Shown here: one piece after another, positions 1 through 23,515 of the stretch | How positions within the stretch are numbered: position 1 is the stretch's first letter | Layout of the letters: the number at the start of each line of letters is the position of its first letter | From: Bacillota bacterium | GTDB lineage: Bacteria; Bacillota; Bacilli; Alicyclobacillales; SLC66 | Length of the DNA stretch: 40,620 nucleotides | NCBI GenBank assembly: GCA_021846165.1 | Contig: JAJZCL010000003.1 | Location: 1 to 40,620 of the forward strand | Direction of reading: 5' to 3' | Program-made: the position numbers and the translations under genes | The notes under the pieces: model-generated | Seen by the model: only the letters and a program-made list of their open reading frames with translations | Database searches by the model: none | Told to the model about the DNA's origin: nothing

Positions 1-546
1 CCGCCCACCAGTTGTCCCCATCCGCCCGTGAATGCGGCGGCGTTCCCTCGGGTGTCCAGCTTCCCTTCCTTGGTCGCCTTGATCAGCTTGTCGGTTTCCA
101 CGAGCAACCCGCTCATGATGTCGATGCATCCGTTCAGGTTGTTCTTGATCTCGTTGAAGTCCCCATGGTACACATCGGTGATTCGCGGCGGGATGTCGCC
201 CTTGCTGATCCGATCCACATACTCCGCCGTCACATTGATCGGCCCCACGAACGCATCGATCATCTCGTTCACGCCGCCCACCAGTTGTCCCCATCCGCCC
301 GTGAATGCGGCGGCGTTCCCTCGGGTGTCCAGCTTCCCTTCCTTGGTCGCCTTGATCAGCTTGTCGGTTTCCGCGAGCAACCCGCTCATGATGTCGATGC
401 ATCCGTTCAGGTTGTTCTTGATCTCGTTGAAGTCCCCATGGTACACATCGGTGATTCGCGGCGGAATGTCGCCCTTGCTGATCCGATCCACATACTCTGC
501 CGTCACATTGATCGGCCCCACGAACGCATCGATCATCTCGTTCACG
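1..546 (-). repeat. Two near-identical 273-bp in-frame tandem repeats (91 residues each)
   Basis: Positions 1-273 and 274-546 align without gaps and differ at only three bases that I can see: 100/373, 192/465 and 225/498. Only the first changes an amino acid (Val/Ala). A third, clearly older copy starts at 547 and keeps the reading frame but diverges after 13 bases. The repeats encode HAMP pairs of the receptor. The window begins inside the array, so further copies may lie to the left. Confidence 0.95.
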
Positions 547-1544
547 CCGCCCACCAGTTTTGCCCAGTCACCTTGATAAGCTGAAGAATTGCCACGTGTA
601 TCTAATTTGCCTTCCCGTGTCGCCTGAATCAAACGATCCATCTCATGAAATAAAAGACGCAGCGTTTCTATGACGCGTTTCATACTGATGCCTAACACAT
701 CTTTTTCAGATAAAACGCGAATTTCCGTTTGCATATCTCCCGCAGCAATACGCTGGGCTGCCTGCGCTTGGCCATTAATCGCATCTGTTAAAACATGGAA
801 CGCGCGAGCCAACTGACCGATTTCATCCTTGCCTTTACTGTCAATAGTGACATCCATATCGCCTTGCGCCAATTTTTCAGCTGCACTTGTAATCTTCTTC
901 AAAGGTCGAGCGATCTGACCCGCAATCAACCACCCTAAAACAAGAGATAAGATAATCAACAATAATATCCCGATGATCGCCACTGTATTGCCCTGAGCTG
1001 CACTTGCAGCCACTTGATTTTGAATGGCTTTGGCTGTTTGTTGATTCCTTGTAGCCATATCACGAATTGGATTTATTACATTATTAAACGATACTTTTGT
1101 ATACTGAGCCTGGGCTTTCATAAGCGCCGCTTTACTACCCGTCGACGCTGTTTGAAATGCCTGATTATTCCCTTGCAGATAACTCTGCCAGTATTGGCGG
1201 AAATTATTCACATCAGTCACGCCAACACTGGTTAGCCCCAAAGACTGCAATTGATTCACCATAGTGTTAATTTGCGATACCGACTGATTATAGAGGCTTT
1301 TATTCTGATCCCTCGCTGTTGCTGTCGAAGCCATCAACGCCCAAGAGCCATGATCGTCCACTGCGTTCACAAGATTCTCAAGTGTTAACGCAAGAGCAAC
1401 CTTTTGATTGGCAGAAGCTAAAGCATGGTTGACCTGATTTTCTCTTTGCATGTTTTGCCATGTAAGAAAACCAATAACAATTAAAGAGATTAACAAAATA
1501 CCCATAAATCCCGCCATGATCTTTGTTCGCACTGACTTCATCAT
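1..1544 (-). CDS. Methyl-accepting chemotaxis protein with poly-HAMP array (partial, C-terminus beyond window)
   Basis: This is a transmembrane chemoreceptor expected to signal to CheA/CheW. Translation of the minus strand from the ATG at 1544 (or 1541) is open for 514 codons to the window edge. A GGAGGA ribosome site lies at 1549-1553. A hydrophobic segment at residues 9-28 and another at about 188-208 bracket an extracellular sensing region of about 155 residues. A first HAMP follows (ARPLKKITSAAEKLAQGD, residues 212-229), then a second diverged HAMP, and then repeat units of 91 residues containing the motif KGDIPPRITD, each unit plausibly holding two HAMP domains as in poly-HAMP proteins. 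The methyl-accepting signalling hairpin is not reached, so calling it a chemoreceptor rather than a histidine kinase rests on the cheW/cheR neighbours and on receptor-like HAMP repeats. It is the last gene of the cheW-cheR-hydrolase operon, 20 bp after the hydrolase. Confidence 0.88.
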   Translation of the reverse strand, partial: MMKSVRTKIMAGFMGILLISLIVIGFLTWQNMQRENQVNHALASANQKVALALTLENLVNAVDDHGSWALMASTATARDQNKSLYNQSVSQINTMVNQLQSLGLTSVGVTDVNNFRQYWQSYLQGNNQAFQTASTGSKAALMKAQAQYTKVSFNNVINPIRDMATRNQQTAKAIQNQVAASAAQGNTVAIIGILLLIILSLVLGWLIAGQIARPLKKITSAAEKLAQGDMDVTIDSKGKDEIGQLARAFHVLTDAINGQAQAAQRIAAGDMQTEIRVLSEKDVLGISMKRVIETLRLLFHEMDRLIQATREGKLDTRGNSSAYQGDWAKLVGGVNEMIDAFVGPINVTAEYVDRISKGDIPPRITDVYHGDFNEIKNNLNGCIDIMSGLLAETDKLIKATKEGKLDTRGNAAAFTGGWGQLVGGVNEMIDAFVGPINVTAEYVDRISKGDIPPRITDVYHGDFNEIKNNLNGCIDIMSGLLVETDKLIKATKEGKLDTRGNAAAFTGGWGQLVG

Positions 1545-1564: not shown

Positions 1565-2161
1565 CTAATTTTTGCAACAGATCATCTGATAGGATGAGCG
1601 CAACACCTCCATCGCATTCTCTTGACACGGTTCGCCATGGCCAAAATAAATTGTCCGAATGTCCATCTTGCACAACCGTTCAAACGTTCGAACGAATCCT
1701 TCTTCATAATCACTGCCTGGTGACGTGATCACGAGGGGGGTGTCTCCAGCAAATAACAGTTTGTTCACTTCGTCATACAGCAGAATGGAATCGGTACTGT
1801 GTCCTGGCATATGAATCACGCTCAAATACCCATCACCTGCCTTGATCTGTTCTCCATCCTTTAATACATGATCCACACCATCAAACGTTTCTGAGAAAGC
1901 CATAATTCTGGCGTTGAATTCTTCCTTTAGGATTTTGATCATGCCAGTGTGATCATAGTGTGAATGGGTTAAGATCACTTGTTCCACTTTTCTTTTCCCC
2001 ACTCCCGTTGACGCCACCTGTAAGCGCTGAAGAATTTGCGGGTCACGACCGGCATCAATCAACGTATTCACGTCCGACAATGCATTCCAGGTGCCTGTCA
2101 GTAAATAAACATTAGAAGTATACACTGGACTTTTTTCTGTTAAATTGATAATTTTCATCAT
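1565..2161 (-). CDS. Metallo-beta-lactamase-fold hydrolase in chemotaxis operon
   Basis: This 198-residue protein carries the complete zinc-binding set of the metallo-beta-lactamase fold: HSHYDH at residues 66-71, His121 in the HMPGHS motif, Asp140 in FAGDT and His175 in FGHGEP. It has no signal peptide, so it should be cytoplasmic. The HxHxDH form is that of hydrolases (glyoxalase II or lactonase type) and not the HxExDH form of diiron oxygen or nitric-oxide reductases. The substrate cannot be read from the sequence. It lies 38 bp after the cheR-like gene and 20 bp before the receptor, all on the same strand, so it is probably co-transcribed with them. Two ATGs stand in tandem at 2161 and 2158; neither has a strong ribosome site. 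Confidence 0.85.
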   Translation of the reverse strand: MMKIINLTEKSPVYTSNVYLLTGTWNALSDVNTLIDAGRDPQILQRLQVASTGVGKRKVEQVILTHSHYDHTGMIKILKEEFNARIMAFSETFDGVDHVLKDGEQIKAGDGYLSVIHMPGHSTDSILLYDEVNKLLFAGDTPLVITSPGSDYEEGFVRTFERLCKMDIRTIYFGHGEPCQENAMEVLRSSYQMICCKN

Positions 2162-2199: not shown

Positions 2200-2814
2200 T
2201 TATATTTTCTGGAAGAGTTGAACTTGTGAAACAACTTGTACAAATAGACCCTTAAGTTCCTCCGGAAGTTTCTGCGTCTGTTCCACTGCCAAAAAACCAC
2301 CTACCGAAAGCGCTTGATGAAACATTCGGAAAACTTCCACGCGTTCTCGCTGAGAAAAATGCAGCAGAACATTTTTGCAAAGAATGAGATCCAACTGCTC
2401 TGCCGGCGGTTGCAAGGAAAGTAAATCATGACGCAGAAAATGAACCACTTTACGGATTTCTTCCGAAATTTGATACGTTTCGCCAGATTCGTCTGCAAAA
2501 AAGTACCTATCCAAAATCTCTCCCGGGATCCGTTCCACTTGATCCCTCGGATAACGCCCTTCCGCAATAATCGCTTCAAATTGCTGACTTTGGTCAATGT
2601 CTGTCGCCAAAATGCTCACATTGCGAAAGTACATGTAACCAACATTTTCTCTGAGCAATATAGCCAGCGAGTAGGGTTCAGGACCCATTGCACAACCCGC
2701 ATCCCAAATCTTAATCCGTTGTCGAGAGCGGAGCGATTGCAACGCATGGTCACGAATCATTTCCAACGTTTGCATGTCGCGAAAAAAATAAGTGAATGCC
2801 ATACTCATCACCAT
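2200..2814 (-). CDS. cheR: CheR-type methyltransferase lacking the N-terminal helical domain
   Basis: CheR methylates receptor glutamates using S-adenosylmethionine. The 204 residues contain the catalytic-domain landmarks: TYFFRD at 8-13, the SAM-binding loop DAGCAMGPEPYSLA at 38-51 and an acidic ATDID at 70-74. A normal CheR is about 260-280 residues and starts with a helical domain of about 70 residues that helps bind the receptor; here the protein begins directly at the catalytic domain. Only 27 bp separate it from the upstream cheW, so the missing domain is not hidden in another frame nearby. The ATG at 2814 has no strong ribosome site; the ATGs at 2808 and 2802 are alternatives. The fold assignment is solid. 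Activity on receptors is inferred. Confidence 0.82.
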   Translation of the reverse strand: MVMSMAFTYFFRDMQTLEMIRDHALQSLRSRQRIKIWDAGCAMGPEPYSLAILLRENVGYMYFRNVSILATDIDQSQQFEAIIAEGRYPRDQVERIPGEILDRYFFADESGETYQISEEIRKVVHFLRHDLLSLQPPAEQLDLILCKNVLLHFSQRERVEVFRMFHQALSVGGFLAVEQTQKLPEELKGLFVQVVSQVQLFQKI

Positions 2815-2841: not shown

Positions 2842-3336
2842 TTAAGCGAGCCCTCCTAAAGTTTCCATCTCATCGTCAGATAGTAGCCTTTCACAGTCGA
2901 GAAGCAGCTTAACCTCGCCTTCCACCTTGCCAATCCCTTTGATGTATCGATTTCCGCCTTTGTTCAAATCAGGCGGCGGTACGATCTCTTCATCAGGTAT
3001 CGACAGCACTTCCGCCACACTATCTACGATTAACCCGATGGAAATATCCTGAATGTCGATCACAATGACGCATGTGCGGTCATTGTAATCAATCAGCGGT
3101 TTTTTAAAACGCGCTCGGACATCCATAAGAGGAATGATCTTGCCGCGAAGATTGATGATCCCGCGAATATAACCAGGCATTTCCGGAACTTCCGTGATTG
3201 GTTGCAACTTGATGATCTCCGTCACATACTGGATCTCCAATCCGTAAAACTCAGTGCCCAGCGAAAACGTCAGGTACTTGCCCTTCTGAGTATCTTCTTC
3301 CAGATCAAGCGCTTCGTCCGAGGTTAGATTCGACAT
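2842..3336 (-). CDS. cheW: CheW chemotaxis coupling protein
   Basis: CheW links receptors to the kinase CheA. The 164-residue protein has a short acidic N-terminal extension, then the CheW fold with FSLGTEFYGLEI, the conserved VPEMPGYIRGIINLRGKIIP region, and a C-terminal acidic tail. The ATG at 3336 has a GGGGTGGAG ribosome site a few bases upstream. It is the first gene of the operon cheW, cheR-like, hydrolase, receptor, and sits about 25 bp downstream of a terminator that follows a c-di-GMP riboswitch, so its expression is probably set by c-di-GMP. A second CheW is encoded at 23138-23515 beside cheA, so this copy may serve a dedicated receptor set. Confidence 0.95.
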   Translation of the reverse strand: MSNLTSDEALDLEEDTQKGKYLTFSLGTEFYGLEIQYVTEIIKLQPITEVPEMPGYIRGIINLRGKIIPLMDVRARFKKPLIDYNDRTCVIVIDIQDISIGLIVDSVAEVLSIPDEEIVPPPDLNKGGNRYIKGIGKVEGEVKLLLDCERLLSDDEMETLGGLA

Positions 3337-3360
3337 AACTCCACCCCTTCCCTTATTAAG

Positions 3361-3400
3361 TAAAAAAACAAAAAGCGACCTTGGTTTCGAAAGGGCCGCT
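3361..3400 (-). terminator. Rho-independent terminator after the c-di-GMP riboswitch
   Basis: On the minus strand AGCGGCC and GGTCGCT form a 7-bp stem (one G-T pair) around a 13-base loop, followed by TTTTTGTTTTTTT. It lies between the aptamer and cheW, as expected for the expression platform of a transcriptional riboswitch. Confidence 0.8.
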
Positions 3401-3422
3401 CTGCCTACGCATACAGAAAATC

Positions 3423-3517
3423 ATCGTTGCAGCCCGGCGATCATAAACTCCACCGCTGAAGTCTTTAGACCCGTGGTTTTGCGTCCCACCATTTCTGACG
3501 GTTTGCCCATTCGATTA
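3423..3517 (-). ncRNA. Cyclic-di-GMP-I (GEMM-I) riboswitch aptamer
   Basis: The minus strand reads GGGCAAACC, then a six-pair helix (CCGTCA/TGGTGG, with two G-T pairs) closed by a GAAA tetraloop, then GGGACGCAAAACC, the CCTAA-like segment GGGTCTAAAG, a CCAC/GTGG helix, and GCCGGGCTGC at the 3' side. Order and sequence match the GEMM-I consensus, including the tetraloop and its receptor segment. The aptamer binds c-di-GMP. It precedes a terminator and then cheW. The part of the 3' strand reading GGGCTGC could alternatively pair with GCAG and GCCC at the base of the terminator, which would make ligand binding favour termination (an OFF switch); that direction is only an inference. Confidence 0.92.
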
Positions 3518-3574: not shown

Positions 3575-3640
3575 GGTTAATTCTAATCTTCGTTACCAAC
3601 TGCGTTAAGTTATTTTAGGATTGGTTCAAAAAGACTACGT

Positions 3641-20753: not shown

Positions 20754-23090
20754 GTGAGTAAAGAATATCTTTCCATGTTCATTGATGAAACACGCGAACA
20801 CTTACAAGCATGGTCAGACGGTATGATCAGCATGGAAAAGTCTGGAGACTTAACTGCAGTTGCCACTATTTTCCGTGCCGCTCACACCATAAAGGGCATG
20901 GCGATGACCATGGGCTATAAACACATGGGAGAAGTCACTCACAAAGCGGAAAATTTATTGGATGACTTGCGCAACAACAAGATCAAGATTACGACTCCAA
21001 TTGTGGACGCACTTCTCCATGCGCTCGACATGCTGGAAATGTTGCTTGACGATATTGAAAGTACGGAAGAAGAATCAGATCGCAACATTCTACCGATTAT
21101 TGACGAACTGAAGGCAGCCCACGAAGGTAGAGATTATGTATCGATAAGCGCCCCATCGGCAAATCATCATGTAGAGCCAGCGGCTGCACATGATGATTTG
21201 CCTGGCATCAACGATCAGGCTCTAATCCATAAAGTCGCAGAAAAGGCCATGGAGCAAGGATACCGCATCTATGAGATCGTGATTGGTTTTTCGAGTGATT
21301 GCGTGATGCCTTTAGCTAGGTTTGCGCAGTGGCTTCAGGTCATTGACCAAGACTCGTTGCTGCACACCGATCCTGACGCCACCATTTTAGATACAGGGGA
21401 TTATTCTGGCGATATTACGGCAGTCATCGCATCCCGCGAAGACTTTGAAGCGGTTGGCGAGGCGCTTTCTTCTATTTCTTCCGAGATCATCGTCAGATCG
21501 ATTAGCGAGTGGACAAAGAGTGAACAGAATACATACGTCAAAACGGAAAACCTGCTTCCAAAAGATGGACACATTACTGATGACGACCATGTAAAACGAG
21601 TCATCCAACAAGCGCTGAAGCAGGATTATCGTGTCTACGAAGTGGGGGTTTTGCTCGCTGAAACCTGTCAGATGAAGTCAGCTCGGATTTTCATGGTGTT
21701 TGAGGCGATCGGCGGCCAGAATCACTTGCTTTTTACCAAACCACACGTACAACTGATCGAAAAGGAAGAAATGAATCGGGATGTGCTGTTTGTGATTTGG
21801 ACAAAGGAGGACTTGACGACTGTGCAGAAAGCCATTCAAAGCATTTCCGAAGTGGATATTGTGGAACTGCGCGAATGGGTCAAGGATGGCGATGAGACCC
21901 TACGCGGACCCAATCTGGCTCAAAAGTCTGATCAACAAAAAGCGTCGACTGCGGAGAAGCGCAAGATGAGTACGGTGCGGGTCGATACTGAGAAGTTGGA
22001 CGACCTGATGAACCTTGTGTCGGAGCTGGCCATTGACAAGACGCGTCTGGAAAGGATTCGCACCGAAGTGCCTCATGTCGGGCTGTCTGAAACCGTCGAT
22101 CACATGAGCCGCTTGTCAAGTCAGTTGCAGGAGTTGATCATGTCCATTCGCATGGTGCCTGTAGAAACGGTATTTAACCGTTTTCCGCGCATGGTGCGCG
22201 ACACATCGCAACAACTTGGCAAAGAGGTTGAGTTTACGATCATTGGCCAGGACACCGAGCTTGATCGCACTGTGGTCGAAGAAATCGGCGACCCCATCAT
22301 GCACATGCTGCGCAATTCGCTCGACCACGGCATTGAGAGCATGATGCAAAGGCGTGCCTCCGGTAAACCTGAAAGAGGCCACATTGAGTTGCGCGCCTAC
22401 GCCGCTGGTAACCATGTTTTTATTGAGGTGGAAGACGACGGGCACGGCATTAATCGCGACAAGGTATTCAAGAAAGCCCTGGAAAAGGGCATCGTGAGCA
22501 GTTCGGAACACCTTACTGACCACCAAATTTTCCAGTTGATGTTTGCCTCCGGTTTTTCTACCGCCGATCAAGTCAGCGACTTGTCTGGGCGCGGTGTGGG
22601 TCTTGACGTTGTGAAGTCCAAGATCGAGTCCTTATCGGGCAAAGTGGACGTTTTTAGTGAAGAAGGCAAGGGCACTAAGTTTGTCATTCGACTGCCAATG
22701 ACGCTGGCGATTATGGACGGGCTTATGGTGAAGATCGGCGACCACCCATACTTGATTCCGATTGGAAGCATAACGGAAACTGGCGTCTTGCGAAACACGC
22801 AATCGGTTAACGGTTCTGAAGTTGTGATTTGGCGCAATCGAGTCGTGCCCATCGTGCGCTCACGCAAAATTTTTAACGAACCCATCGTCAGTGATGAGGG
22901 ATTTGTCGTATTTGTTAACCGTGGCGATAAAGTGGTAGGCATTGTGGTCGATGAACTGCTCGGTCAATTTGAGGTGGTACTCAAGACACTTGATCAACGC
23001 CTCAAAAAAATCCCTTACTTCGCAGGTGCCACGATCTTGGGAGACGGTGAAGTGTCCCTGATTATCGACGCAAACGCATTCATCGATTGA
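20754..23090 (+). CDS. cheA: Chemotaxis histidine kinase CheA with two P2-like modules
   Basis: CheA is the receptor-coupled kinase that phosphorylates CheY and CheB. The 778 residues read: P1 phosphotransfer domain 1-105 with His44 in RAAHTIKGMA; a P2-like module at about 155-255; a second, related module at about 278-378; dimerisation domain P3 about 405-470; ATPase P4 about 471-645 with N box MLRNSLDHGIE, G1 DDGHGI and G2 GRGVGLDVV; and CheW-like P5 650-778. The two middle modules share the pattern GYRIYEIVIGF / DYRVYEVGVLL and end alike (SISEWT / ELREWV). Ordinary CheA has one P2. The start is GTG at 20754 after AAGGAGTGA. cheW follows; no cheY, cheB, cheC or cheD lies in the window. Confidence 0.96.
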   Translation: MSKEYLSMFIDETREHLQAWSDGMISMEKSGDLTAVATIFRAAHTIKGMAMTMGYKHMGEVTHKAENLLDDLRNNKIKITTPIVDALLHALDMLEMLLDDIESTEEESDRNILPIIDELKAAHEGRDYVSISAPSANHHVEPAAAHDDLPGINDQALIHKVAEKAMEQGYRIYEIVIGFSSDCVMPLARFAQWLQVIDQDSLLHTDPDATILDTGDYSGDITAVIASREDFEAVGEALSSISSEIIVRSISEWTKSEQNTYVKTENLLPKDGHITDDDHVKRVIQQALKQDYRVYEVGVLLAETCQMKSARIFMVFEAIGGQNHLLFTKPHVQLIEKEEMNRDVLFVIWTKEDLTTVQKAIQSISEVDIVELREWVKDGDETLRGPNLAQKSDQQKASTAEKRKMSTVRVDTEKLDDLMNLVSELAIDKTRLERIRTEVPHVGLSETVDHMSRLSSQLQELIMSIRMVPVETVFNRFPRMVRDTSQQLGKEVEFTIIGQDTELDRTVVEEIGDPIMHMLRNSLDHGIESMMQRRASGKPERGHIELRAYAAGNHVFIEVEDDGHGINRDKVFKKALEKGIVSSSEHLTDHQIFQLMFASGFSTADQVSDLSGRGVGLDVVKSKIESLSGKVDVFSEEGKGTKFVIRLPMTLAIMDGLMVKIGDHPYLIPIGSITETGVLRNTQSVNGSEVVIWRNRVVPIVRSRKIFNEPIVSDEGFVVFVNRGDKVVGIVVDELLGQFEVVLKTLDQRLKKIPYFAGATILGDGEVSLIIDANAFID

Positions 23091-23137
23091 CGCGGTAACC
23101 ATGGATGAACTTGAATGAATGGACGGGAGGTTATGTT

Positions 23138-23515
23138 TTGAAAATCGTTACCTTTCGCATCAGCAGCGAGTTGTATGGACTGCCGGTGGACACCGTAAAA
23201 TCGATTGAGCGCATACAGCCGATACGCCCTGTGCCGATGGCGCCGGAAAATATCGTCGGCATCATGAACCTGCGCGGTGTGGTCATGACGGTGATCGATT
23301 TGCGGGCAATGCTGAATATGCCCCAATCTGATTTTACACCGGATACCAGATTGCTTGTCATTAAGGATGTTTCCTATATCGTTGATGAGGCGATGGATGT
23401 GCTGGAAGCCGATTTGTCCCACACGGAGATGCAGGATGAAGATCACCCACTTGTGGAAGGCATTCTTCAGCAAGGCGACAAACTGATTGTCATGATTAAA
23501 TCCGAAAGCCTGTAG
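23138..23515 (+). CDS. cheW: CheW coupling protein, partner of adjacent CheA
   Basis: This 125-residue CheW-fold protein shows FRISSELYGLPVDTVKSIER and the conserved MAPENIVGIMNLRGVVMTVIDLR segment. The start is taken as TTG at 23138 because GGGAGG at 23125-23130 is seven bases upstream; an ATG at 23105 would add 11 residues but has no clear site. It follows cheA by 47 bp and is surely part of the same unit. It is shorter than the other CheW in the window (164 residues) and lacks its acidic extensions. Its 3' end overlaps the convergent hemH by 20 bp. Confidence 0.93.
   Translation: MKIVTFRISSELYGLPVDTVKSIERIQPIRPVPMAPENIVGIMNLRGVVMTVIDLRAMLNMPQSDFTPDTRLLVIKDVSYIVDEAMDVLEADLSHTEMQDEDHPLVEGILQQGDKLIVMIKSESL

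Follow-up and report, generated by a model that had tools for sequence, protein, structure and literature searches.

The question raised by this locus is which signal governs the expression of a chemosensory operon, and in which direction that signal acts. The window, i.e. the whole stretch of 40,620 nucleotides that was analysed (contig JAJZCL010000003.1 of a Bacillota bacterium), carries near its beginning a run of minus-strand genes headed by cheW. The original prediction had proposed that c-di-GMP is coupled here, via a riboswitch in the cheW leader, to the supply of CheW, a CheR-like enzyme, a hydrolase and a poly-HAMP receptor. The genes of this run are:

2842..3336, minus strand: cheW, first gene of the putative operon (PF01584, E 5.4e-40)
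2200..2814, minus strand: short CheR methyltransferase, catalytic domain only (PF01739, E 1.9e-43; no CheR_N match)
1565..2161, minus strand: metallo-beta-lactamase-fold hydrolase (PF00753, E 2.5e-20; nearest solved structures include glyoxalase II)
3..1544, minus strand: poly-HAMP chemoreceptor with its 3' end missing (4HB_MCP_1, HAMP and HAMP_2)

The proposed cheW target is borne out by its domain match, and the remaining genes could be specified further: the CheR-like enzyme is a short form of CheR whose N-terminal domain finds no match, the hydrolase has the metallo-beta-lactamase fold, and the receptor contains the expected HAMP domains while its gene runs off the contig end, which leaves the operon incomplete in the window. 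The complete receptor gene of a relative carries MCPsignal, and in G002, a genome of the genus, the run goes on past the whole receptor gene to a full CheR and a hemerythrin. The short cheR and metallo-beta-lactamase genes sit between cheW and the receptor gene in all four genus members, and in none of the other clusters examined. The possibility that the metallo-beta-lactamase protein is an oxygen-sensing ODP chemotaxis partner was considered and rejected: it matches ODP (1.5e-6) much less well than Lactamase_B (2.5e-20), and this reading is also countered by its HSHYDH motif and by the glyoxalase II-type hydrolases among the matched solved structures. The window encodes a further CheA-CheW pair at 20754-23515, and PF01584 is matched six times in the genome, in part within CheA proteins; hence, we read the cheW at 2842-3336 as part of an accessory system. 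The original notion of control over the supply of CheW was too broad in this respect, as further CheW proteins are encoded elsewhere in the genome and the target forms an accessory chemosensory cluster of its own. Flagellin was found in G002 and in G010, a genome outside the genus, and not in the incomplete assemblies of the window genome (G000), G001 and G003. A 273-bp tandem repeat (window positions 1-566; 2.1 copies, 98% identical) falls within the HAMP_2 section of the receptor gene. The contig ends inside this repeat, so the true copy number may differ from 2.1, and the assembly may have broken there.

Ahead of cheW the leader shows the following elements:

3580..3608, minus strand: promoter-like pair TTAACG-17-TAGAAT (consensus scan; aligned hexamers in relatives)
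3425..3517, minus strand: class I c-di-GMP (GEMM-I) aptamer (RF01051 match and fold covariation)
3429..3438, minus strand: strand A GCCGGGCTGC, the aptamer 3' strand able to pair with strand T (folding)
3395..3404, minus strand: strand T GCAGAGCGGC, antiterminator partner overlapping the terminator 5' arm (folding)
3374..3400, minus strand: terminator hairpin AGCGGCC/GGTCGCT (folding; longer stems at the equivalent place in three relatives)
3362..3373, minus strand: terminator T-tract TTTTGTTTTTTT (sequence)

The class assignment of the aptamer held up well, as did the interval of 2842-3517 given for it together with cheW. A covariance scan of the whole window (cmscan) recovered RF01051, c-di-GMP-I, at 3517-3425 on the minus strand with 68.6 bits (E 1.6e-11), far above the gathering cut-off of 35 bits; the alignment spans model positions 1-87 of 87, i.e. 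a full-length aptamer, and this is the sole Rfam match within the window. From its 3' end it is 88 nt to the start codon of cheW (3336). The aptamer fold is backed by covariation: in 25 homologous aptamers 97.5% of cells are paired, with 94 double changes versus 26.7 +/- 4.5 in shuffles. The GAAA tetraloop that had been pointed out is present, along with the conserved junction bases, and the conserved bases are kept even though the window aptamer is only 78-82% identical to its orthologs. Hence, the cheW leader holds a class I c-di-GMP riboswitch aptamer, which is predicted to bind its ligand. We take G3507, A3480 and C3429 of the window to correspond to the ligand-contacting bases G20, A47 and C92 of the Vc2 aptamer. 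This correspondence bears on the identity of the ligand, since 3',3'-cGAMP aptamers share this fold and were initially annotated as sensing c-di-GMP; recognition of cGAMP is linked to a G20A change, whereas the selectivity base of the window, G3507 in what is presumably the G20 position, is G, the c-di-GMP type. That cGAMP rather than c-di-GMP is the ligand appears extremely improbable.

The proposal of a terminator after the aptamer likewise stands, in the form of the stem at 3374-3400 and the T-tract at 3362-3373, and all three relatives keep a longer stem followed by a T-tract at the equivalent position. Taken by itself the energy of the window terminator is ordinary (z -0.45), and at -10.2 kcal/mol it is the weakest of the cheW set, as against -13 to -19 kcal/mol in the relatives. 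A simple terminator scan missed this hairpin, whose loop has 13 nt versus the 3-8 allowed. The minimum-energy fold of the whole leader has no special stability (z 0.75) and hence is no evidence by itself. On the promoter side, the consensus-scan score of TTAACG-17-TAGAAT (3608-3580) is alone not beyond chance, and promoter-like hexamers occur at the equivalent position in the three relatives when the alignment is read by eye; a second promoter-like site at 3559-3532 was rejected as it is not conserved in them.

The aptamer, the terminator and the gene order ahead of cheW are kept in all three genus relatives (G001-G003), and these features, like the aptamer class, can be read directly from the sequence. 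Among 79 loci with relatives of the window cheW that were compared, six have aptamers. Three of these belong to the genus members, with the aptamer just before cheW; in a fourth (L038, from G010) it lies just before cheA, and in the remaining two, from Lucifera (L083) and Selenomonadales (L108), it precedes an ORF that by eye is cheY-like, followed by cheA. With a further genome, G163, where it again lies before cheA, the aptamer precedes a cheA-cheW cluster in four lineages beyond the genus. An Rfam scan of the cheW loci L032-L107 found, beyond c-di-GMP-I, just one c-di-AMP riboswitch and no c-di-GMP-II; the former (RF00379, 75.3 bits, L107:3726-3875) lies upstream of another relative's cheW locus.

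Most loci examined elsewhere in Firmicutes have the order cheA-cheW-MCP-cheR, with cheB next in G010. In the genus of the window the cluster is split, with cheA-cheB on a separate contig, and in G002 and G003 the cheA half has its own aptamer besides that of the cheW half, with 76-80% identity between the two (cheA was not found in the incomplete assembly of G001). Overall, identity between cheA and cheW aptamers is 75-80%, above that of either to the remaining aptamers in these genomes, and tree support for grouping them is low; a duplication of the leader when the cluster was split would be the simplest reading of such similar aptamers on both halves. Homology between the promoter regions of cheA and cheW is no more than suggested, with 23-37 of 300 shuffles scoring as well, and in the same comparison the window's own cheW leader has none to the cheA promoter regions. 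Separately, G003 encodes a further cluster of cheA, cheW and a poly-HAMP receptor (C113, L168) with no aptamer over threshold.

The window genome itself has a cheA ortholog (G000:C43:7438-9408, 74% identical), whose leader (L167:9408-9660, minus strand) has no aptamer even with filters off, at the place where G002 and G003 have one. Retained in this leader are AATGGACTAGTCTnTATGnAACTTATT on the promoter side and CCGTTC/GAACGG, a stem resembling a terminator. It looks as if the aptamer was lost from the cheA leader in the window lineage, with the caution that the assembly is fragmented (129 contigs, 83% complete). A fuller scenario, to which we would give slightly less than even odds, is that the whole accessory chemosensory system is under riboswitch control, that the leader was duplicated at the split, which kept both halves responsive to one signal, and that the window lineage then lost the cheA-cheB aptamer, uncoupling the supply of kinase from that of coupling protein and receptor.

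We propose that the c-di-GMP riboswitch in the cheW leader controls the accessory chemosensory operon through premature transcription termination. At low c-di-GMP strand A (3429-3438) would pair with strand T (3395-3404), block the terminator and leave the operon on; at high c-di-GMP the ligand would pair with C3429, strand A would be held in the aptamer, and the terminator would form and turn off the downstream genes, which probably make up one transcript. We put the probability of this OFF switch as a whole, including the predicted ligand binding, direction and single transcript, at roughly 0.78; the 12 GGDEF matches of the window genome count in its favour. The architecture resembles that of its nearest known counterpart, Cd1 (Cdi-1-3) of the Clostridioides difficile flgB operon, which also combines a class I aptamer with a non-overlapping terminator (PMC9262584, PMC6200980). 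In the window the aptamer ends at 3425 and the terminator begins at 3400, 24 nt apart and with no shared bases, so both can coexist as in Cd1. The Cd1 antiterminator takes up C87 and G86 (PMC9262584), just as the predicted A:T helix takes up C3429, the expected ligand-pairing base in which strand A ends, plus the preceding G. Both targets are related to motility, that of Cd1 being an early flagellar operon and that of the window an accessory chemosensory cluster; the transcriptional OFF response of Cd1 was established by experiment (PMC9262584, PMC6200980), whereas that of the window is a prediction.

The original prediction of OFF control had drawn on pairing between the aptamer 3' strand and the terminator base. 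This pairing can indeed fold, with a predicted P of 0.99 in a transcript that reaches only the terminator 5' arm, but in the window leader it is not beyond chance (79 of 500 shuffles as good), nor do the three cheW orthologs stand out (84, 255 and 220 of 500). In G002, G003 and G010 the leader of cheA does show it more strongly than shuffles would (0, 9 and 10 of 500); for the leaders from Lucifera and Selenomonadales it stays at chance level. The two full folds of the window leader are nearly equal (-41.8 versus -40.2 kcal/mol, a difference of 1.6 kcal/mol), and after synthesis of the whole terminator its fold has a slight to clear advantage in the absence of ligand as well, so that OFF control would hinge on timing during transcription. 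OFF nevertheless is the likely and best-supported direction, as judged from the non-overlap, the pairing logic of Cd1 and the stronger pairing in the cheA leaders.

The class of the aptamer does not by itself fix this direction. In C. difficile every functional class I switch acts in the OFF direction (PMC6200980), whereas Bc2 of B. thuringiensis is ON, and Bc1 of the Bacillus cereus group, which like the window aptamer lies upstream of chemotaxis (MCP) genes, is reported to turn reporters on, though it precedes a receptor gene only and has a long expression platform with two terminators (PMC11218506). With such precedents in Bacilli, the ligand might instead prevent termination, so that the operon is made at high c-di-GMP, e.g. 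for surface behaviour. The pilM riboswitch of Geobacter metallireducens, a transcriptional ON switch with the same aptamer fold that binds cGAMP, has a terminator that uses aptamer bases (PMC9262584); an ON switch of this type would need the same, whereas the window terminator starts 24 nt on and shares none, and we regard ON control as unlikely. Non-functional class I aptamers do occur in C. difficile, and one might also view the window aptamer as a decaying copy, with the operon level set only by partial termination; the weak window terminator and the missing aptamer of the partner cheA leader would fit such decay. Against it stand the score far over the cut-off and the retention of the conserved bases at the above level of divergence, which make it distinctly improbable.

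The significance of such a switch would lie in its target. The effects of c-di-GMP are mostly observed at the flagellar motor or at flagellar genes; if placed on the core components of a chemosensory array, a riboswitch would allow this messenger to determine the amount in which one sensory system is built. Neither the riboswitch class nor the kind of target is new: c-di-GMP riboswitches have been reviewed as preceding motility and chemotaxis genes, including an MCP gene in B. anthracis (PMC6366702). Our literature search turned up none described for a cheA/cheW operon; such cases may be listed in the original GEMM papers. What appears new is the aptamer ahead of the cheA-cheW cluster in several lineages, with each half of the split cluster carrying one in two relatives. 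With the operon split, similar switches on its two parts and one of these apparently lost in a natural genome, comparison across the genus could tell whether the balance between the parts is of consequence. Beyond chemotaxis, in three relatives (L175, L176 and L177) a c-di-GMP-I aptamer was also seen before a 67-aa ORF that contains EEGQGMVEYGLIIALVA and by eye resembles Flp-type pilins.
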